Part shown: piece by piece, positions 2-23,440 of the stretch
Layout: every line of letters starts with the position of its first letter
How positions within the stretch are numbered: position 1 is the first letter of the stretch
DNA from: a virus
DNA length: 63,352 bases
Strand: one strand, 5' to 3'
IMG/VR virus record: IMGVR_UViG_3300008111_002165
Span: 1 to 63,352 of that record
Position numbers and translations under genes: made by a program
The notes under the pieces: model-generated
Told to the model about the DNA's origin: nothing
The model's database searches: none
The model's input: the letters and a program-made list of their open reading frames with translations, nothing else

Positions 2-1795
2 ATGCAACTCTTAAACGAAAACGAGATTTACGAAACGTGGTCTCCAATTATCGAGAGTAAGACCGGTATGACGGATCGTTCAAAGGTAGAGTGGTTATCT
101 AAATATTGCCACTTCCATTCATTAAACGAATCTGCCGGAGCTTATAACTCTCTAGGCGTATTAAACGGTATGGGTAACGTACTTCCTGCTGGTAACTACC
201 AAGGTGGTGCAGCTGGTGCGGGTCCTGCTGGTTTCTACTACAACAACACTTATGACGCTGGTCGTCCATATGTTGGTTCTGGTGATAAATTCCCATCATT
301 ACTTCCATTGGCTATTCAGGTAGCTGCTAAAACCGTTGGTTTTGACATCGTTCCTGTTATTCCTATGGCTGGTCCTACTGGAGTATTATCTTACCTAGAC
401 TACGTATATGCAGGTGGTTCATTAGCTGGTAGTTCAGCTGACTCTACTAGCAACTATGTAGCTAACACTCCTGACATGATTAAAATCCCTACGGCTATTG
501 CTTCTCCAGCAACTGGTCTTGTAGTAGGTGATAATTATGTAATCGGTGTTGGTCTTTCTTCTTCAGTTAACCTTGCAACAGGTGGTAACGCTGCAATCGG
601 TGTATTCATCGGTAACTCACGTATCGACGGTTTCCCTATTTTCAGAATCCTTGCTATTGGTAACGGCGACTCTATCGCTCAGGTAATTCCTGCTGCTGGT
701 ACTGCTGATATCTATGCAACTACATGGACTACTGGTACTGCTTTAACTGCAGTTAACGTTGGTTCTTTAGCTGCTTCTACTGCTGGTAACGCTGTATTAG
801 TTAAAACGTTAGAAGATCATATCCAAGGTTTCTCTGGAGCTGGTCCTGAAAACGATAACGATTGGCAAGGTCCATACGTAGACGGTACTAAAAACTACGA
901 TCCTATGTTAAGAGGAGTAGGTGAGACAACTTATTACAAGTCATTAGGTCTTTCTACTTTCACTAAGTTCGTAGAAGCTGGTACTTTCCAAGTTGCTGCT
1001 TCTGTTACTACTGAGCAAATCCAAGACCTTAACAAGCAGTTCGGTATCGACGTAGTTTCTATGATCGAGAACGCACTTGTTAATGAGGTTTCTCAAGCTA
1101 TTAACAAGCACATCTTATCTAGAGCTTATGCTCTTGGATGGTCTAACCACTCTCAGTTCTTAATCACTGAAAACACAAACCTTAACCTTAACTTAGTTAT
1201 TGGTGGTGCTGCTACTTATAATGTACCTAACTACATCGGTAAACAAGGTACTGCTGTAACAGGTGGTTCTAAACCAGGTGCGGTTGCTGGTCCTGCTTCA
1301 GGTACTTTTGAGAACTTATCAACAGTTCAAAGAAGACTTTACTCTCGTATCTTAGCTGCTGCTAACGTAGTTGCTAACAGAGGTCGTAGAGGTCCTGCTA
1401 ACTTCATCGTTACTAACTCTCAAATTGCGTCTGCTTTACAAGACATCAGTCAGTTCACATTCGCTCCGTTTACTAACACACTTACTCAAAACAACGGTAC
1501 ATTATACCCTGTAGGTTCACTTGCTGGTATGACTGTATATGTTGATCAAAACATGTCATTCGGTGACACTAGAGTATTGGTTGGTAGAAAAGGTGCTGAT
1601 GATGAGCCAGGTATGAAATTCATGCCTTACATGATGGCAGAATCAATCCAAACAATTTCTGAAGGTACAATGTCTCCTAAGATCGCGGTTAAATCTCGTT
1701 ACTCTTTAGTTGAGGCTGGTCACCACCCAGAAACAATGTATTTCGTATTCCACGTTAACACTGGAACTGCTACTGCTATCATCTATATCATCTAA
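2..1795 (+). CDS. Major capsid protein, T4 gp23-like
   Basis: This protein should form the hexamers of the phage head shell. The 597 residues resemble T4 gp23 in several places: a VEAGTFQVAASVTTEQIQDL segment near residue 325, followed by a GIDV...IENALVNEVSQAIN helix; GRRGPANFIVTNSQIASAL near residue 460; AGMTVYVDQN near 510; and a C-terminal PYMMAESIQTISEGTMSPKI stretch. An LNE|S site at residues 41-43 (nt 122-130) fits the (L/I)xE rule for the T4 prohead protease, so the first 43 residues are probably a cleaved propeptide, shorter than the 65 residues of T4. A Gly/Ala/Ser/Thr-rich region at about 60-300 could hold an inserted surface domain. Codon use is more GC-rich and regular than in neighbouring genes, as expected for a very highly expressed protein. 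The ATG lies one base inside the window, so a start further upstream cannot be excluded. A strong terminator follows. Confidence 0.93.
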   Translation: MQLLNENEIYETWSPIIESKTGMTDRSKVEWLSKYCHFHSLNESAGAYNSLGVLNGMGNVLPAGNYQGGAAGAGPAGFYYNNTYDAGRPYVGSGDKFPSLLPLAIQVAAKTVGFDIVPVIPMAGPTGVLSYLDYVYAGGSLAGSSADSTSNYVANTPDMIKIPTAIASPATGLVVGDNYVIGVGLSSSVNLATGGNAAIGVFIGNSRIDGFPIFRILAIGNGDSIAQVIPAAGTADIYATTWTTGTALTAVNVGSLAASTAGNAVLVKTLEDHIQGFSGAGPENDNDWQGPYVDGTKNYDPMLRGVGETTYYKSLGLSTFTKFVEAGTFQVAASVTTEQIQDLNKQFGIDVVSMIENALVNEVSQAINKHILSRAYALGWSNHSQFLITENTNLNLNLVIGGAATYNVPNYIGKQGTAVTGGSKPGAVAGPASGTFENLSTVQRRLYSRILAAANVVANRGRRGPANFIVTNSQIASALQDISQFTFAPFTNTLTQNNGTLYPVGSLAGMTVYVDQNMSFGDTRVLVGRKGADDEPGMKFMPYMMAESIQTISEGTMSPKIAVKSRYSLVEAGHHPETMYFVFHVNTGTATAIIYII

Positions 1796-6672: not shown

Positions 6673-7209
6673 ATGCCCCTTATTATTGTAGAAGGATCCA
6701 GAAAATCCGGTAAATCATATCTTATATCAAAACAAACGGATCTTCCAGTTTTTAAATTTGATTTTAATTCAAATTTTTCTACCTGGGACTTTGGTAAGCA
6801 ATCTGAAGAGGTCCATTGGTTTGGGTTAGGCAAAGAGGTAATGCTTCACGAATTAAATTCATCCGGATTTCTAGATAAAATGATAGTCGACAGAGGAATA
6901 CTTACCAATTCTGTTTGGGGCGTTTTTCAAGGAAGAGTAACTAAAAAGCAAGCAGAAAAGGATATTATAAATTTTAACAAAAGAGGACTTTTTAGGAATA
7001 CTAAAATAATAGTTGTTCAAGGACAATGGTCAGAAAAAAGAACTAAAGATATATGGGATCAGGACGATTCTAGAGTAGAAGAAGAAAGATCCCTTTTCAC
7101 TGAGTTTTCTTTGCTTTTAAGAGACTTGGGAGTGGATGTAAAGGTTTTCAATAATAACTTCGATTTGGAGTCGGTAGTGAGGTTTAAACAAGAAATTAGA
7201 AGAATTTAA
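6673..7209 (+). CDS. Small P-loop kinase, deoxynucleoside/thymidylate-kinase-like
   Basis: At 178 residues this is a compact P-loop NTPase. The Walker A motif is EGSRKSGKS at residues 7-15. IVDRGILTNS near residue 72 resembles the DR(S/G) motif of the thymidylate kinase and deoxynucleoside kinase superfamily, where Asp-Arg contacts the acceptor nucleoside. A possible lid, QWSEKRTKD, follows at about 117-125. It would phosphorylate a nucleoside or nucleotide with ATP, a common phage function for dNTP supply, but a polynucleotide or other small-molecule kinase is also possible. It sits 2 bases ahead of the asparagine synthetase gene and is probably co-transcribed with it. Confidence 0.62.
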   Translation: MPLIIVEGSRKSGKSYLISKQTDLPVFKFDFNSNFSTWDFGKQSEEVHWFGLGKEVMLHELNSSGFLDKMIVDRGILTNSVWGVFQGRVTKKQAEKDIINFNKRGLFRNTKIIVVQGQWSEKRTKDIWDQDDSRVEEERSLFTEFSLLLRDLGVDVKVFNNNFDLESVVRFKQEIRRI

Positions 7210-7211
7210 AT

Positions 7212-8627
7212 ATGTGTGGTATATTAGTAGCAAAAAGAGCAAGTGAGGAAAGAATAATGTCTATTGCTCATAGAGGAATTGAACATAATGTAGTTTATAA
7301 GGATGACCTTTGTTTAGTACATCATAGACTTCCTATACAAACAGTAGACGGGGATTCTTGGTCACAGCCTATACAAATAGGTGAAGATAGATGGCTACTG
7401 TTTAACGGAGAGATTTTTAATTACGGAAATTACGAATCAGATACGGCTTATTTACAAAAATTGTTTTCAACATTCCAATTTGGAGGAATAGGTATACTAC
7501 AGGCTTTATATGATTCACACATAGTTTCATGGGATGGATTTTGGGCTATAGTTTTGGTTGACACTAAAAAAAGGGATATTTATGCTTTTACAGATCCCCT
7601 TGGAAAAAAATGTTTATATCGTAACGAAAAAGGGGAGATTTGTTCAGAGATAAAAGGATTATATGAAGAAAATGAAAGACCAAATTTTGATAGATCTTTC
7701 TTCTCCGGTGTTACTAAATTTGGTTATTTAGCTACAGAACAAACTCCTTTTATAGGTATAAAAAAGCTTGAACCTAATAGATTCTATCAATGGAATCTAG
7801 ACTCTCCTCATATTATTAATGTATCTGACCAATACTACGATTTTAACTTCTTCGACGCAGGGCTAAATACATATGATGACAGATGTGAATGGCTTTTTGA
7901 TAAGATGGAAAAATCTGTAGAAGCCAGATTATTATCTAAAAATTATCCAACATCTCTACTTTTATCAGGTGGATTGGATTCTTCAATAATTGCTGGTCTT
8001 TTACTAAAGCTTGGTGGAAATGTTGATTTTTATTCCATATCTAATGGTGAAGATGAAGAATATGTAAAAGCTTGTGAATACTACTGGGACGTAGAATCGA
8101 AAAGATTAAATTATAATATTGATATAGAATCTGATTCAGGTAAAAAAAATCTCATCGAAATATACAAAAAATGGAACGAATCTCCAGTTGATATGGGAAG
8201 TGTAGTTCCTCAGTATCATTTATTCGATGCAATAAAAAAAGGTTCTAATACAAGAATCGTTATATCTGGTGACGGAGCAGATGAATTATTTGGTGGATAT
8301 AGAAGAATAAATGAGTATGATTCACAGCATTCTGATATATTTCACGAATTAACTTATTATCATCTTCCCAGATTAGATAAGTTATCGATGGCACATACAT
8401 TAGAATTAAGAAGTCCTTTTTTAAATCACGATATAATTAGATTTGCTATAAGTCTTCCTTTCGAGGAAAGAAAAAATAAAAAGATATTAAAGGATACTTT
8501 TAAGGGATTAGTTCCAGATTCTGTAATAGAAAGAAGCAAACTAGCTTTAAAAAATAAGATGATCGTCGATGATCAGATTAAATACAGAAAAGAGGTAATA
8601 AGATTATTTCTCGGAATTCCCGTTTGA
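7212..8627 (+). CDS. asnB: Glutamine-hydrolysing asparagine synthetase
   Basis: This enzyme makes asparagine from aspartate, glutamine and ATP in the cytoplasm. The N terminus is MCGI, with Cys2 the glutaminase nucleophile, followed by HRG at 20-22, HHRLPI at about 37 and FNGEIFNY at about 65. The synthetase half has the PP-loop SGGLDSS at 252-258 and SGDGADELFGGYRR from 352, which bind ATP and form beta-aspartyl-AMP. All main motifs are intact. At 471 residues it is shorter than E. coli AsnB (554), mainly through a short C terminus. Its 3' end overlaps the convergent ligase-protease gene by 24 bases. In phages such enzymes may supply asparagine or amidate another carboxylate. The neighbouring ATP-grasp ligase and acidic protein make a protein-carboxylate target worth testing. 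Confidence 0.93.
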   Translation: MCGILVAKRASEERIMSIAHRGIEHNVVYKDDLCLVHHRLPIQTVDGDSWSQPIQIGEDRWLLFNGEIFNYGNYESDTAYLQKLFSTFQFGGIGILQALYDSHIVSWDGFWAIVLVDTKKRDIYAFTDPLGKKCLYRNEKGEICSEIKGLYEENERPNFDRSFFSGVTKFGYLATEQTPFIGIKKLEPNRFYQWNLDSPHIINVSDQYYDFNFFDAGLNTYDDRCEWLFDKMEKSVEARLLSKNYPTSLLLSGGLDSSIIAGLLLKLGGNVDFYSISNGEDEEYVKACEYYWDVESKRLNYNIDIESDSGKKNLIEIYKKWNESPVDMGSVVPQYHLFDAIKKGSNTRIVISGDGADELFGGYRRINEYDSQHSDIFHELTYYHLPRLDKLSMAHTLELRSPFLNHDIIRFAISLPFEERKNKKILKDTFKGLVPDSVIERSKLALKNKMIVDDQIKYRKEVIRLFLGIPV

Positions 8628-10103
8628 TTTAACTACCTTAACACCAGCTATAGGATCCCCTTTTGCATCTTTTGGTGAATATCCCTCAGGTCTGTCAGTT
8701 AAAACAAAATCCTCCGAAGGGTCTACAACTAATCCAGCGGAACTTAAAAAATCCCTATTTAGTAATAATGGGGTACTTTTTTCAGTTCTATCTACTAATG
8801 AGAACTTAACTTTCTTATATACAAGACCATTAAAATCTACATCGAGATTAACAACCGCTCTGTGGTGTATTTTTTCACCAACCTCAGCTTTTGATTGACC
8901 TACTATTTTATTTACAAATTCTTGATTACCTAGCTTCCAGTAAACTTTACCATCGGATTCTTCTATGCTGTCTGCATGTAAACTACAAGAAGTTGCTCCG
9001 TTACCTGTATCTAATTTACCTACAAACGTTCCTACTCCAGATATAGTTACCATTTCTCTAAATCCAGTAGTTTTCTTAGGTTTAACCCAGTTTTTCTTAT
9101 CTAAAAGAAAATCTACTACCATATCTGTTACGGGAATATCAGTTGTTTTTTCTATACCAGTAGTTCCAGGAGAGGCATTAACCTCTAGAACATAAGGTTT
9201 TTCCTCCGCTGATGTACTTTTTCCTTTTTCTACTATAATGTCTACACCACACCATAAACATCCGGTAGCTTTAGCAGATTCTATTGCTATTCTTTCTATT
9301 TCTTTGGAAAGCTTAACATTCTCTGTTTCACCCCCTAAAGAAAAATTAGTTCTAAAATCTCCCTCTATTTTTATTCTTTTCATTGCTGCTATGACTTTGT
9401 ATTCTCTACTTGCCATACCATCACTTTCTGCAACTACGTGTATTCTAAGATCGTAATCTGCATCTATTTTTTCTTGTAAAACTATTTCAGTCCCTGGTGC
9501 TAAGTGCCACAAAGCCTGTAAGGTAGAAACTAGAGATGGTCTAGAGTCTATCATAAATACACCTATTCCTTTAGTTCCTGATAGAAATTTACAAACAACT
9601 GGATAATTACCACCAACTTCTTCTACTGCTTTATCTATATCAGCTTCAGATGATATTAATGATGTTTTAGGAACAGGTATTTTAGCTAACTGTAATTTTC
9701 TTGTAGTCTGTAGTTTATCTTCACATATAATAACAGAATCATAGGAATTGACACATGGAAAACCTAGATCTTCCATCTTTTTAAAAAATCCCTTAGCTGC
9801 ATTGTTTTTTATAGAGGATCTTCTAGTTAATACTATGGTTCTATCCAGATGTATTTCTTGTTGTTTTCCTCCTCTGCTTGATATAAGAAAAGTTCCTTTT
9901 ATTGTTTTTTGAATAGATCCTTTTTCTGTATCTATTATTATACATCTAACTCCCTTCTCCTCACAGATTTTCATTATCTTATCTGTTGTTGGAGCATTTT
10001 TTAGACTTTTACCAAGTTTAGTAGTTAATATAACAACTGTTAAGGGTCTTTCCTTTCCTTTAACTCCCTTAAATACAAACTTTTCTAGTAATGAGTAATC
10101 CAT
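8604..10103 (-). CDS. RimK-like ATP-grasp ligase fused to RimB-type retropepsin-fold protease
   Basis: Numbering is from the in-frame ATG at 10124; I prefer the start at 10103 (MDYSLLEKF, residue 8), because the longer form begins only 5 bases from a terminator hairpin. The N-terminal ~340 residues are an ATP-grasp ligase of the RimK type: KFLSGTKGIGVF at 179-190 is the flexible nucleotide loop, VLQEKI at 215, DLRIHVVAE at 225, and VLEVNASPG at 312-320 holds the metal-binding Asn. RimK adds glutamates to a protein C terminus (ribosomal protein S6). The C-terminal part (358-475) matches the RimB/DUF785 putative ATP-dependent zinc protease, a retropepsin fold, with KLDTGNGATSCSLHA at 370-384 and LLLNRDFL at 453. 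One polypeptide therefore combines ligation with a protease fold. The upstream gene on the same strand encodes a polyacidic protein, an obvious candidate substrate. Confidence 0.85.
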   Translation of the reverse strand: MDYSLLEKFVFKGVKGKERPLTVVILTTKLGKSLKNAPTTDKIMKICEEKGVRCIIIDTEKGSIQKTIKGTFLISSRGGKQQEIHLDRTIVLTRRSSIKNNAAKGFFKKMEDLGFPCVNSYDSVIICEDKLQTTRKLQLAKIPVPKTSLISSEADIDKAVEEVGGNYPVVCKFLSGTKGIGVFMIDSRPSLVSTLQALWHLAPGTEIVLQEKIDADYDLRIHVVAESDGMASREYKVIAAMKRIKIEGDFRTNFSLGGETENVKLSKEIERIAIESAKATGCLWCGVDIIVEKGKSTSAEEKPYVLEVNASPGTTGIEKTTDIPVTDMVVDFLLDKKNWVKPKKTTGFREMVTISGVGTFVGKLDTGNGATSCSLHADSIEESDGKVYWKLGNQEFVNKIVGQSKAEVGEKIHHRAVVNLDVDFNGLVYKKVKFSLVDRTEKSTPLLLNRDFLSSAGLVVDPSEDFVLTDRPEGYSPKDAKGDPIAGVKVVKSNGNSEK

Positions 10104-10128
10104 AATGTATATATCGATAAACAAAGAA

Positions 10129-10153
10129 AAAGCCCGGAATCAATCTGGGCTTT
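10129..10153 (-). terminator. Terminator or attenuator between the acidic-protein gene and the ligase gene
   Basis: The inverted repeat AAAGCCCGG / CTGGGCTTT (10129-10137 with 10145-10153) gives 9 pairs including one G-T, with a 7-base loop. Read on the minus strand it follows the stop of the acidic-protein gene (10174) and ends in a T-run (TTTTTC), so it should end that transcript or reduce read-through into the ligase gene. Confidence 0.78.
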
Positions 10154-10173
10154 AAATATGTTTAATGGAAAAA

Positions 10174-10770
10174 TTATTTACCGAAGAAGTTATCGAATCG
10201 TATAACCTCTACTTCATTATTTTCTTCACCTTCTAATTCGGATTCATCCTCCTCTTCTGTGTCTTCTTCTTCTTCCTCCTCCTCTTCGTCTTCTAGGTCC
10301 ATGTCGTCCTCTTCATCGTCTTCGTCTTCTTCCTCGTCTCCTATATCCATGTCATCTTCCTCTTCATCCTCGTCTTCATCGTCTTCGTCCTCGTCTTCTT
10401 CTTCCTCGTCTTCATCCTCTTCCTCGTCTTCCATGTCATCTTCCTCTTCGTCCTCGTCTTCTTCTTCCTCGTCTCCTAGATCCATATCATCTTCCTCTTC
10501 ATCCTCGTCTTCATCCTCGTCCTCGTCTTCCATGTCATCTTCCTCTTCGTCCTCGTCCTCGTCTTCTAGGTCCATGTCATCTTCCTCTTCGTCCTCGTCC
10601 TCGTCCTCGTCCTCGTCTTCGTCTTCATCCTCGTCTTCTAGGTCCATGTCATCTTCCTCTTCGTCCTCGTCCTCGTCCTCGTCTTCATCCTCGTCCTCGT
10701 CTTCTAGGTCCATGTCATCTTCGTCCTCGTCTTCGTCCTCTAGGTCCATGTCATCTTCCTTTTTATCCAT
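10174..10770 (-). CDS. Extreme Asp/Glu repeat protein
   Basis: Of 198 residues, about 170 are almost only Asp and Glu, arranged in nine units that start with DDM (most often DDMDLED, also DDMEDE and DDMDIGD) followed by mixed D/E runs of varied length. The C terminus changes character: ELEGEENNEVEVIRFDNFFGK. The protein must be very acidic and disordered. T4 gp67 (PIP), a prohead-core protein, also ends in a long Asp/Glu tract, so a core or scaffold role is one option. Others are a DNA or histone-like decoy, a cation buffer in the head, or the acceptor for the RimK-like ligase encoded next. No LxE/IxE processing site is present. It lies 12 bases after the neighbouring small gene, so the two are probably in one minus-strand operon. 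Confidence 0.85.
   Translation of the reverse strand: MDKKEDDMDLEDEDEDEDDMDLEDEDEDEDEDEDEDEEEDDMDLEDEDEDEDEDEDEDEDEEEDDMDLEDEDEDEEEDDMEDEDEDEDEDEEEDDMDLGDEEEEDEDEEEDDMEDEEEDEDEEEEDEDEDDEDEDEEEDDMDIGDEEEDEDDEEDDMDLEDEEEEEEEEDTEEEDESELEGEENNEVEVIRFDNFFGK
10255..10765. repeat. Imperfect tandem repeat, pyrimidine-rich on the + strand
   Basis: The coding part of the acidic protein is built from TC(T/C/G) trinucleotides on the + strand, punctuated by nine TCCAT-containing unit boundaries (for example near 10297, 10346, 10431, 10481, 10531, 10571 and 10641). The strand bias is very strong over about 500 bases. Units differ in length by multiples of three, so slippage would keep the frame. Confidence 0.85.
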
Positions 10771-10782
10771 TTTTTATGTTTT

Positions 10783-11034
10783 TTATTCAGTTATTCCTAT
10801 TGAAGCAGCACTTCCTGATTCAGTAGCGCCATATCCTGGGTAATCTATTTTAGATGTTTTATTAAAAATAGCATCTTTATATCCCACATAATCGTATGCA
10901 GATTCGGGTGATATTTTATGTAACCCTGTTCTGTCTTCCTTACTAAGATTATCAGGATTCCAAGGATCGCTAACGACCTTCATAAAATCCTTATAGCTTA
11001 GGATCTCTCTTTTTTTTACGTTTTTCTGATTCAT
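10783..11034 (-). CDS. Small protein of unknown function
   Basis: This 83-residue protein has a basic N terminus (MNQKNVKKREILSYKDFMK) and a Gly/Ser/Ala-rich end. The SYKDFMK part recalls the SY.QF leader of the next upstream gene but lacks a Glu at a cleavage position. No domain is recognised. It lies 5 bases behind the stop of the upstream minus-strand gene (11040-11771) and 12 bases before the acidic-protein gene, so it is probably part of the same operon. Confidence 0.6.
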   Translation of the reverse strand: MNQKNVKKREILSYKDFMKVVSDPWNPDNLSKEDRTGLHKISPESAYDYVGYKDAIFNKTSKIDYPGYGATESGSAASIGITE

Positions 11035-11039
11035 CCTTT

Positions 11040-11771
11040 TTATTTATTAAATTGGAGAACACTGGATAAGCCAGATCTCATTGCTTGTGTATATATATCT
11101 GGATTTTTTTCACCAGCTGCTTCTATCTGTCCTTGAATTTTCTGTTTATCAGAAGTTGTAACATTACCACCAGATAAAACGTCTCCAAGTTTAAATCCAC
11201 ATATTTTATCGCTTATCATCTTCTCTATGTTATTCATGAAAGAAGTATTATTTATAGCGTTTGTTAAAGCCTCTCTTAATCCTGCTGCTATAGTTCCTCC
11301 CATTCCTTCAGTCATGTCTATTTTCATACCTAATCTAGGTAATAAATATTCTATTCCTCTTTCTTGTAATGTTTCAGATAAACCTTCTATAATAGCAGTA
11401 GCCCAATTTTTACATGATCCAGACCCGAAATATTTTCCTAGATCAGTAAAATGTACCTGCTCTATTACGTTTCTAATAACTTGGTAGAAAAAAGTTGGCT
11501 GTCCGTTCTCATCGAAAGGATCGATACCAAATTTTTGAGCTGCCCAATCTATTATATAATCTTTAAACGTGTCAGTAAAACCACCTCCTAAAGAGCTAAA
11601 AAATGAAGTAAATATATTTTCGTTAATTTCCTCCTCGTTTAAACCCTCTGATTGAAGTCTTAAATATTCGCTTTCTAACATATACATTTCATCTGTATAT
11701 TGGCTAATATCATATCCTCCTCTGTTAGATTTAGATTCCGATATAAATTGTGAATAACTTCTGATCACCAT
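11040..11771 (-). CDS. Internal head-type protein with T4-like capsid-targeting leader
   Basis: The N terminus, MVIRSYSQFISE|S, closely follows the T4 internal-protein leader MKTYQEFIAE|A: an aromatic residue, a spacer, F-(I/V)-x-E, then a small residue. In T4 this leader targets proteins into the prohead and is removed by the gp21 protease. A second run, LNEEEINENIF, followed by FFSSLGGGFTDTFKDY (residues ~55-72), resembles the post-cleavage motif of the coiled-coil proteins behind the capsid gene. The rest (about 75-243) looks globular, with GGTIAAGLREALTNAINN-type helices and three Cys, and no catalytic motif I can name. It probably enters the head and may be ejected with the DNA. Confidence 0.68.
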   Translation of the reverse strand: MVIRSYSQFISESKSNRGGYDISQYTDEMYMLESEYLRLQSEGLNEEEINENIFTSFFSSLGGGFTDTFKDYIIDWAAQKFGIDPFDENGQPTFFYQVIRNVIEQVHFTDLGKYFGSGSCKNWATAIIEGLSETLQERGIEYLLPRLGMKIDMTEGMGGTIAAGLREALTNAINNTSFMNNIEKMISDKICGFKLGDVLSGGNVTTSDKQKIQGQIEAAGEKNPDIYTQAMRSGLSSVLQFNK

Positions 11772-20771: not shown

Positions 20772-22442
20772 ATGGAATATAAAATAGGAGATATAATATC
20801 CGTACCTAAACATGGGGATTTAGAAATAAATAAGGAGGTATTATATCTATTTGAAGGATTTCTAAAATATGATACGAAATATTGTATTATTTTAATAAAG
20901 GGATACTCAGAGGGATATCCTTACCTTCTAAATTTAGATATTAAAATATTCTTACATTTATGTTATACTCATGACTATAAAAAATATAAGGAATTTTTTA
21001 AATCCCTATATAATGATTTCCCTTGTAATGAAAGTGCATGTATACTACAATTAATATCTCATAGAATATTTGAAACTGAGGGATATACCAAAGAATTAGA
21101 AAAAAATTTATCAGATAGCATATATTTTTTCGAAAACAATGAATGGCATAAATGGCGAATAAGCGGAAAATTTTTTCTCGGACTATACTCAGGTGACGAA
21201 ACAATAATCTTTAAAAATTTTATAGACTGTTTAAACACAGAAAAACTTTTTATAGATATGGACTGCTATCAAGATAAAATTGGCTATATAGTGTCTTGGT
21301 TAAGATGTAAACAACCAGAGAAATCTAAGATTTATTTGGAAAAATTATATGATAAACTAGAAGAATTTGGATACCATTACAGCCAAGCTCTTGATCCTTT
21401 GATTAAATATCATAATACTAAAGAACTAGAGGAACATTTAGAGGGTTATGACTCTTACAATTTATGGAATCATGTAAATAATAAAAAAAATAATATGAAA
21501 TATCAAAGAGTTTGTATTTTAGGATCAACAGGTTTAGTTGGATCTAATTTATATAGGAAATACCTGGAAAAATATCCGGGTGCTGTTATTCTTGCTCCTA
21601 AAAGATATAATTTAGATCTTGAGAACAGAGAACAAGTAATAGGATATTTCATAAAGAATAAGCCAGATCTTGTATTTATGTGCGCTGCAAAGGTTGGGGG
21701 AATAAAAGCTAATAATGATTATAAGGCTGATTTTATAACTACCAATCTTAAAATACAGACAAATGTTATAGAAGCCTGTCACTTGTCCAAAGTGGATAAA
21801 TTAGTTTTTCTTGGATCCTCCTGCATATATCCTAAAAATTCCGAAATTCCTATCAAGGAGGAATATCTTATGACAGGACATTTAGAGACAACCAACGATG
21901 CCTATGCAATAGCCAAGATTTCTGGAATTAAAATGTGTCAGTCTTATAGACAACAATACGGGGATGATTACATATCTGTAATGCCTTGTAATTTATATGG
22001 GCCTGGAGATAATTTTAATCTCGACTCAAGTCATGTTCTTCCTGCTCTAATTAGAAAATTTCACGAAGCAAAAGAAGCAGATTCAAGTTATGTTGAGGTA
22101 TGGGGAACAGGAAAACCTATGAGGGAATTTTTATATGTTGACGATTTAGCCGAAGCATTAATTCATTTATCTGAGAATTATTCATCTGAAGATATTATAA
22201 ATGTAGGATCGGGAAATGATATTTCAATATCTGATCTTTCTTTATTAATATCTGAAGTGGTAGGGTACAAGGGAAAAATAAAATTTAATTACAAATATCC
22301 TGATGGTACATACAGAAAAGTTATGGATGTTTCTAAAATTTTTGAAACAGGATGGAGACCTTCTCATACAATAGAAGAGGGGATTAAAAAAACTTACGAA
22401 TATTATAAAAATACAATATGTCGATTAGAAAAGCGATTATAA
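20772..22442 (+). CDS. fcl: GDP-L-fucose synthase with a novel N-terminal domain
   Basis: Residues 242-556 are a full GDP-L-fucose synthase (GDP-4-keto-6-deoxymannose epimerase/reductase). LGSTGLVGSNL at ~249 is the Rossmann NADPH loop, GSSCIYP at ~348 carries the catalytic Ser, and YAIAKISG holds the Tyr-x-x-x-Lys pair. The preceding 241 residues are unlike any fcl I know: helical and rich in Tyr, Phe and Lys, with no named domain. Met242 (ATG at 21495) is preceded by an A-run and AATAAT leader like those before many genes here, so a separate 315-residue Fcl may also be translated from inside the gene. The enzyme completes GDP-fucose synthesis for the GT10 transferase. The gene ends inside the start of gmd. 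Confidence 0.9.
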   Translation: MEYKIGDIISVPKHGDLEINKEVLYLFEGFLKYDTKYCIILIKGYSEGYPYLLNLDIKIFLHLCYTHDYKKYKEFFKSLYNDFPCNESACILQLISHRIFETEGYTKELEKNLSDSIYFFENNEWHKWRISGKFFLGLYSGDETIIFKNFIDCLNTEKLFIDMDCYQDKIGYIVSWLRCKQPEKSKIYLEKLYDKLEEFGYHYSQALDPLIKYHNTKELEEHLEGYDSYNLWNHVNNKKNNMKYQRVCILGSTGLVGSNLYRKYLEKYPGAVILAPKRYNLDLENREQVIGYFIKNKPDLVFMCAAKVGGIKANNDYKADFITTNLKIQTNVIEACHLSKVDKLVFLGSSCIYPKNSEIPIKEEYLMTGHLETTNDAYAIAKISGIKMCQSYRQQYGDDYISVMPCNLYGPGDNFNLDSSHVLPALIRKFHEAKEADSSYVEVWGTGKPMREFLYVDDLAEALIHLSENYSSEDIINVGSGNDISISDLSLLISEVVGYKGKIKFNYKYPDGTYRKVMDVSKIFETGWRPSHTIEEGIKKTYEYYKNTICRLEKRL

Positions 22443-23440
22443 CAGGAGTTAATGGACAAGATGGATCCTATTTAGCTGAACTACTTCTTAATAAAGGATA
22501 TGAAGTACATGGTACAATAAGAAGATCATCATCTTTTAATACTTGGAGAATAGACCATCTCCGAAATAACGATAGATTTAAATGGCACTATGCGGACGTA
22601 ACTGATCCAGTTTCTATTAGTAATCTAATTTCTAGTATTAAGCCAGACGAGTTTTATAATCTAGCTGCACAGAGCCACGTTAAGATTTCTTTTGAAATTC
22701 CTTATTATACTGGTCAAGTAGATGCAATAGGTACTTTGAATGTATTGGAATCTATAAGAACTCATTCTCCACATACTAAACTTTATCAGGCTTCAACTTC
22801 GGAGTTATATGGAATGGTTCAAGAAACACCACAAACAGAGAGAACCCCATTTTACCCAAGAAGTCCTTATGGAGTTGCTAAACTTTATGGATTTTGGATA
22901 ATAAAAAACTATAGGGAAGCATACGACATATTTGCTTGTAATGGTATTCTTTTCAATCATACATCTCCTAGAAGAGGTGAAAATTTTGTAGAGAAGAAAA
23001 TAGTTGATGGATTAGTAGATATTAAACTTGGTAAATCTGATATTTTAAAATTAGGTAATCTAAATTCTTCAAGAGACATAGGACACGCCAAAGAATATGT
23101 TGAGGGTATGTGGAGAATGCTACAGCAAGAAACTCCTAGGGATTTTGTTTTAGCTACTGGGGTTTCTTATACAATAAGAGAAATTGTAGAAATGACATCA
23201 ATTAAATTAGATATGGAAATTGAATTCATTGGAGAAGGCGTTGAAGAAATTGGTGTAGTAAAAGAAACTGGTAAAAAAATAATAGAAGTAGATAGCAAAT
23301 ATTTTAGACCATCTGAGGTTGATTTATTAATAGGAGATGCTAGCGATGCTAAAAAAGTATTAGGATGGGAACCAAAACTTTCTCTTTCCCATATAATAGA
23401 TGAAATGATAGAAGATAAAATAAAATCCTATGGATTATAA
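22418..23440 (+). CDS. gmd: GDP-mannose 4,6-dehydratase
   Basis: This enzyme converts GDP-mannose to GDP-4-keto-6-deoxymannose, the first step to GDP-L-fucose. ITGVNGQDGSYLAELL at 8-23 is the Gly-rich NADP loop, FYNLAAQSHV at 79-88 is a hallmark of the family, STSELYG at 126-132 holds the catalytic Thr and Glu, and YGVAKLYG at 151-158 the Tyr and Lys. At 340 residues it is close to the usual length. The gene overlaps fcl by 25 bases. Together they form a complete two-step route from host GDP-mannose. Confidence 0.96.
   Translation: MSIRKAIITGVNGQDGSYLAELLLNKGYEVHGTIRRSSSFNTWRIDHLRNNDRFKWHYADVTDPVSISNLISSIKPDEFYNLAAQSHVKISFEIPYYTGQVDAIGTLNVLESIRTHSPHTKLYQASTSELYGMVQETPQTERTPFYPRSPYGVAKLYGFWIIKNYREAYDIFACNGILFNHTSPRRGENFVEKKIVDGLVDIKLGKSDILKLGNLNSSRDIGHAKEYVEGMWRMLQQETPRDFVLATGVSYTIREIVEMTSIKLDMEIEFIGEGVEEIGVVKETGKKIIEVDSKYFRPSEVDLLIGDASDAKKVLGWEPKLSLSHIIDEMIEDKIKSYGL

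Follow-up and report, generated by a model that had tools for sequence, protein, structure and literature searches.

The analysed window, a stretch of 63,352 nucleotides (IMG/VR record IMGVR_UViG_3300008111_002165), is part of the genome of a T4-superfamily (T4-like) phage and encodes a RimK-type glutamate ligase fused to a RimB-type protease, next to a polyacidic protein. On computational evidence, we give about an even chance to the reading that this fusion is an internal-head glutamylase/deglutamylase, which in most relatives is loaded by a capsid-targeting signal (CTS) and in the clade of the window is linked to the head through the acidic partner. So far, RimK/RimB glutamylation has mainly been described for bacterial ribosomes, and in the open-access full texts searched we found no report of a phage that loads a RimK/RimB-type enzyme into its head. 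What places the enzyme best, namely the CTS, its setting among head genes and the detection of a homologue in virions by proteomics, had been missed in the preliminary description of this DNA. The features of the window are listed in Table 1.

Table 1. Positions of the features of the window (aa, amino acids; an arrow marks a cleavage position)
Feature	Position	Strand	Basis or remark
Major capsid protein, Gp23 family	2..1795	+	E=6e-40; first gene of window
Small P-loop-kinase-like protein	6673..7209	+	GxRKSGKS
Asparagine-synthase-like amidotransferase	7212..8627	+	MCGIL, SGGLDSS intact
RimK-RimB fusion enzyme, 499 aa, ligase then protease	8604..10103	-	Profile matches, alignment, model
RimB/RloA-type retropepsin domain, residues about 340-467	8703..9086	-	Profile and sequence/structure matches
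RimK-type ATP-grasp domain, residues about 128-331	9111..9722	-	Profile and alignment
GATATATA box	10108..10115	-	4 nt ahead of enzyme ATG
Terminator-like hairpin and T run	10127..10150	-	Between acidic and enzyme genes; by eye
Polyacidic protein, 198 aa as read	10174..10770	-	81% D+E
C-terminal motif VIRFDNFFGK of acidic protein	10177..10206	-	Conserved
83-aa protein, N-terminal ILSYKDF motif	10783..11034	-	
243-aa protein, starts MVIRSYSQFISES	11040..11771	-	Same-strand cassette; CTS-like start, cleavage-site-like ISE↓S
Sugar-nucleotide genes (GDP-mannose dehydratase, epimerases)	about 20772..23440		Between head and later structural genes

Ligase and protease domains in a single chain

The reading of a RimK-like ligase and a RimB-type protease in a single polypeptide, already made in the preliminary description, was borne out, and both catalytic residue sets are intact. 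By conservation, the enzyme starts at the ATG at 10103 and not at the TTG at 10124. It matches PF08443 (RimK) with E=2.4e-37 and TIGR00768 with 150.6 bits, above the curated cut-off of 143.4. The match to PF05618 (Zn_protease, E=1.1e-5) reached 25.8 bits on one sequence (hmmscan) and 30.1 bits when the neighbouring pieces were summed, at a cut-off of 27, and the C-terminal domain has sequence matches to the retropepsins 9g59, 9g58 and 2pma. Across 34 aligned phage sequences, the ATP-grasp residues K172, R220, R243, R251, N253, D288, E307 and N309 were invariant (34/34), and the RimK catalytic and metal motifs DFRxN, GVDI and EVNxSPG are present in the enzyme. For the retropepsin half, D365 was found in all 34 sequences, K363 in 33 and both R415 and R439 in 32, with DTG or DSG in 32/34. 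The module proposed earlier had hinged on the essential residues of the ATP-grasp/retropepsin pair, and these are present in the alignment. The residues equivalent to RloA K46, D48, R114 and R137, which serve poly-Glu binding or catalysis (PMC12239564), are conserved; in this correspondence the two arginines were taken from the alignment and the lysine from its position relative to DTG. The divergent relatives L079 and L081 have the retropepsin DTG without its TG, and their proteases are possibly inactive with the ligase retained.

Structure prediction, which had been suggested as a check, gave an AlphaFold2 model from the 34 phage sequences with a pLDDT of 85.7. Its best match in the PDB was RimK (7qys, E=2e-23, TM 0.86), and the C-terminal domain matched a single-domain model from a virus with an rmsd of 1.5 A. 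The one fusion protein is probably capable of both the addition and the trimming of glutamate tails on proteins.

The ribosomal protein S6:glutamate ligase RimK (7qys, 5zct, 4iwx) has the fold, the ATP and Mg2+/Glu-site residues and a TIGR00768 score above the cut-off in common with the phage enzyme, whereas the latter is fused to a protease, phage-borne and about 27% identical. The RimB/RloA retropepsins (9g58, 9g59, 2pma) share with the phage domain the catalytic Asp and the basic residues that contact poly-Glu. However, the phage domain is low in sequence similarity, has the marginal PF05618 score and is part of a fusion. A bacterial RimBK hybrid with an active protease is known from Desulfotalea psychrophila (DP2392, PMC11957791), and there too both domains are in one chain. 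In 14/14 Bacteroidota hybrids found the protease is N-terminal, whereas it is C-terminal in the phage family, and the cellular hybrids found have DSG where the phage family has DTG. Since the domain order is reversed, the phage RimK-RimB is probably an independent fusion. A cellular origin was rejected, as a scan of genome contigs gave one weak unrelated ATP-grasp and the Bacteroidota hybrids are in the opposite order. The RimK-like proteins of cyanophages and an OM43 phage (phrog_2599, Melnitz, S-RIM32) have the ATP-grasp in common with the window enzyme, but in the proteins examined a retropepsin half was not seen. The Melnitz protein starts with KFSQFITE↓E, and in the cyanophage S-RIM32 gp23 is followed at 0.6 kb by a RimK that has no protease part. 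A PHROGs search assigned the enzyme only to a RimK family and left the acidic gene and two genes upstream without a match.

The enzyme gene lies in the head gene region

The best annotated matches of the Gp23 protein are Lak phages of Prevotella and phages of Tenacibaculum, Flavobacterium, Sphingomonas and Chryseobacterium, which points to a host among the Bacteroidota. Known phages gave no nucleotide-level match to the window. The context past the window start was supplied by G011, a 98%-identical contig of 153 kb; there, a prohead protease of family S77 is followed by the capsid gene just beyond the window start. At 7 kb from the capsid gene, the window has a same-strand cassette of the 243-aa, 83-aa, polyacidic and RimK-RimB genes in this order, and the position of the Gp23 gene places the cassette within the head gene region. 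In 12 of the 16 contigs in which both genes were found, contigs that are related to one another, the enzyme lies less than 9 kb from the capsid gene, where about 2 were expected by chance. In L062, the capsid gene comes first, then two genes that encode 189 and 703 aa, one that encodes 169 aa and finally the enzyme gene.

The GATATATA box ahead of the enzyme recurs in G011, a near-identical genome; of 33 copies counted there, 27 are at most 60 nt upstream of gene starts. The genes preceded by it include the prohead protease, an 866-aa gene ahead of the protease gene, several CTS genes and the RimK-RimB enzyme. The 866-aa gene is called portal by position only, next to the prohead protease and without a profile match. 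The box stands only 4-25 nt ahead of many start codons, and it is possibly a late promoter that yields nearly leaderless mRNAs. Hairpins similar to that between the acidic and the enzyme gene were seen by eye in most near relatives.

On its other side the enzyme gene converges with the asparagine-synthase-like gene, whose type of amidotransferase releases Glu as a by-product. In the acid-associated loci that were read, this gene and that of the P-loop-kinase-like protein are neighbours of the enzyme gene; the acid-lacking loci read completely (L053, L055, L062, L070) showed neither of them in that place. The sugar-nucleotide genes farther on perhaps serve virion or surface glycosylation.

Relatives of the enzyme carry a capsid-targeting signal

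In T4, the CTS brings proteins to the core of the prohead, after which the maturation protease removes it (PMC7697877, PMC9958956); the N-terminus of IPII/IPIII in the T4 record reads MKTYQEFIAE↓A. A T4-style CTS with a prohead-protease site (MMNLKYFSDFVNE↓A) opens 29 of the 40 distinct enzyme relatives that have no acidic neighbour. As controls, a CTS followed by [LIV]xE↓A was expected 0.68 times from shuffled N-termini and occurred in 4 of 537 internal windows. By eye, most of the other 11 relatives seem to have looser versions of the signal (e.g. L074, L107). The CTS-bearing enzymes span freshwater-type contigs (L053, L062, L070) to Mosig-like ones (L082-L108). The T4 internal head proteins IPI-III and Alt have the same type of N-terminal targeting as the enzyme relatives and, in a CTS-like form, intact copies of the acidic partner, whereas the window enzyme itself has no signal. 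We know of no internal head protein that acts as a glutamylase.

The acid-associated enzymes (12 tree rows and 9 distinct sequences, which are overlapping sets) do not have the CTS, and the N-terminus of the window enzyme is without both the CTS and the prohead-protease site. The packaging of the window enzyme would therefore have to be judged by analogy with its relatives.

A homologue in the phage YerA41 offers evidence from virions. YerA41_066 is 32-34% identical to the window enzyme and is annotated as a structural protein, and the YerA41 'ribosomal protein modification protein' (g112, the middle gene) was particle-associated by LC-MS/MS (PMC7354516). We took YerA41_066 to be g112, because in both cases the pair of ribonucleotide reductase genes lies ahead, at a distance of a single gene. 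The YerA41 virion lists also hold many replication enzymes, and the homologue may possibly be in the particles by contamination or passive inclusion.

These data bear on the idea that the enzyme is a cytoplasmic auxiliary which modifies host S6 late in infection and is unpackaged in this clade, its linkage to the acidic gene being incidental. S6 is a known substrate of RimK and RimB (PMC11957791, PMC7343187), and the missing CTS of the window enzyme would fit. However, the capsid-gene neighbourhood, the upstream box common to the enzyme and structural genes, the CTS on the relatives and the detection of the YerA41 homologue in virions all speak for a place in the head, and we regard this idea as improbable.

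The polyacidic protein and its linkage to the enzyme

The upstream gene, described before as coding for almost only Asp and Glu, encodes a real conserved protein. Its terminal motifs and frame are kept in 11/11 near contigs, and the conserved ends and frame rule out a repeat artefact. Intact relatives have 152-277 aa with MxKKILSFEEF at the N-terminus and VIRFDNFF at the C-terminus; the N-terminal motif varies between ILSFEEF and IFSFDEF, and the short aromatic C-terminal motif between VIRFDNFF, NPAFNRFF and IETFDEYF. Between the conserved ends, the core is of low complexity, variable and fast-evolving. Directly after the N-terminal motif, the usual prohead-protease cleavage site is not clearly recognisable. 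The window copy starts with MDKKEDDMD and lacks this motif together with 37 N-terminal codons of L001/L011 (in-frame gap, 10740-10770), which may be a natural deletion or a repeat that collapsed during assembly. A search of annotated phages for the acidic protein, limited by the low-complexity filter, gave no match.

In 11/11 near IMG/VR contigs, with enzymes 82-100% identical, the acidic gene is adjacent to and co-directional with the enzyme gene. It also adjoins the enzyme in every complete locus of a group with 55-58% identity, where the L043 locus is cut off at the contig end and L041/L042 have the three-gene cassette inverted with the acidic-enzyme linkage kept. At 30-46% identity (L053-L109, all examined) the enzyme is kept, but a strongly acidic gene was not found nearby. 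The linkage that had been expected in related phages therefore holds for the near relatives and the 55-58% group and is absent beyond, and a role of the acidic protein as universal or obligatory substrate of the family was ruled out by the relatives that have the enzyme without the acidic neighbour.

The acid-associated enzymes form one branch of the tree with a support of 100/100, and the acidic neighbours of these CTS-less enzymes carry the ILSFEEF/IFSFDEF N-terminus. Since the acid group is a single branch, the enzyme's signal was lost on the very branch on which a CTS-like acidic neighbour was gained. This apparent swap of the signal is suggestive; it is one evolutionary event (n=1) and not a statistical association.

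A small acidic head protein is also known from T4, where gp67, a core protein of the prohead (PMC9958956), has a D+E content of 43% and is acidic in its C-terminal half. The polyacidic protein could be such a core protein that is unrelated to the enzyme, as it is likewise very acidic and located in the head region near the capsid gene and has targeting-like ends. Sequence homology to gp67 was not detected, and the acidic tract is C-terminal in gp67 but central in the window protein. In addition, the linkage to the enzyme survives the inversion of the cassette (L041), and the appearance of the acidic gene coincides with the loss of the enzyme's CTS, so that we find a gp67-like protein without relation to the enzyme unlikely.

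Substrate or carrier

The preliminary description had proposed the acidic protein as acceptor of the glutamates. RimK normally extends an acceptor with a Glu-ending C-terminus. The acidic protein ends instead with VIRFDNFFN/GK. It may be an acceptor, but it is not a general one. The third gene of the interval, which had been overlooked, encodes the 83-aa protein, and this is the best local candidate acceptor because its C-terminal Glu is conserved in 6 of 8 near loci. For the 243-aa protein encoded upstream of it, the structure model was poor (pLDDT 54.5).

One alternative, which extends the model proposed earlier, takes the acidic or the 83-aa protein as the substrate, a head-core protein with adjustable poly-Glu tails. 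RimB needs at least 4 consecutive Glu and is blocked by Asp (PMC11957791). In all 19 acidic proteins examined, the core contains one or more runs that reach this recognition minimum of 4 Glu, and together with the strict adjacency within the clade and the C-terminal Glu of the 83-aa protein this agrees with a substrate. However, relatives keep the enzyme without the acidic neighbour, the C-terminus of the acidic protein is aromatic, Asn or Lys rather than Glu, and in most acidic stretches the Glu is mixed with Asp, which would block RimB. Compared with shuffled cores the Glu runs are mostly equal, shorter in several near relatives and longer in L045-L048; selection for long Glu runs is thus not supported in general. 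We consider a substrate of this kind rather doubtful. As RimB is blocked by Asp, a core in which Asp, Glu and Ser are mixed would mainly be bound and less readily be cut. This agrees better with a carrier than with a substrate, although trimming would also be possible given the runs of at least 4 Glu.

Our preferred reading, the internal-head enzyme, would work as follows. In most T4-like relatives, the enzyme's own CTS would load it into the prohead core, where the prohead protease would free it, and it would probably be injected with the DNA like T4 Alt and the internal proteins. The ATP-grasp half would add Glu to a protein C-terminus and the retropepsin half would cut poly-Glu, so that the tail length could be tuned on a host protein after injection, with S6 as the known target and the alternative already raised in the preliminary description, or on a head protein. 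In the window clade, the enzyme would have lost its CTS and an adjacent CTS-bearing polyacidic protein would have appeared; its acidic core would dock on the basic poly-Glu-binding sites of the enzyme, bring it into the head and possibly be trimmed, too. We infer the packaging of the window enzyme, the docking, the injection and the target. Adjacency of the acidic and enzyme genes is no proof of binding, which counts against this reading.

The fuller proposition, that T4-like phages package and inject a poly-glutamate writer-eraser and that one lineage has swapped the enzyme's signal for a polyacidic carrier mimicking its product, is tentative, and we would not expect all of it to hold. If true, this would represent a system that loads proteins into phage heads by means of a carrier, and a natural case of a cargo's targeting signal that moved onto a partner. 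C-terminal glutamylation would then join the ADP-ribosylation of T4 as a protein modification delivered with the phage DNA.

CTS-like starts are not confined to the enzyme. In the two long relatives they were found in 14 of 134 proteins (G009) and in 9 of 138 (G011), compared to about 2.6 in shuffles and 1-2 at internal positions; examples are MKKIYNFKEFVNE↓S, MRIMNFSQFLNE↓N and MKHVFSFNEFVNE↓A. In G009 and G011 (L016-L031), more than 20 proteins without an assigned function start in this way, and their N-termini suggest a large unexplored internal-head cargo.
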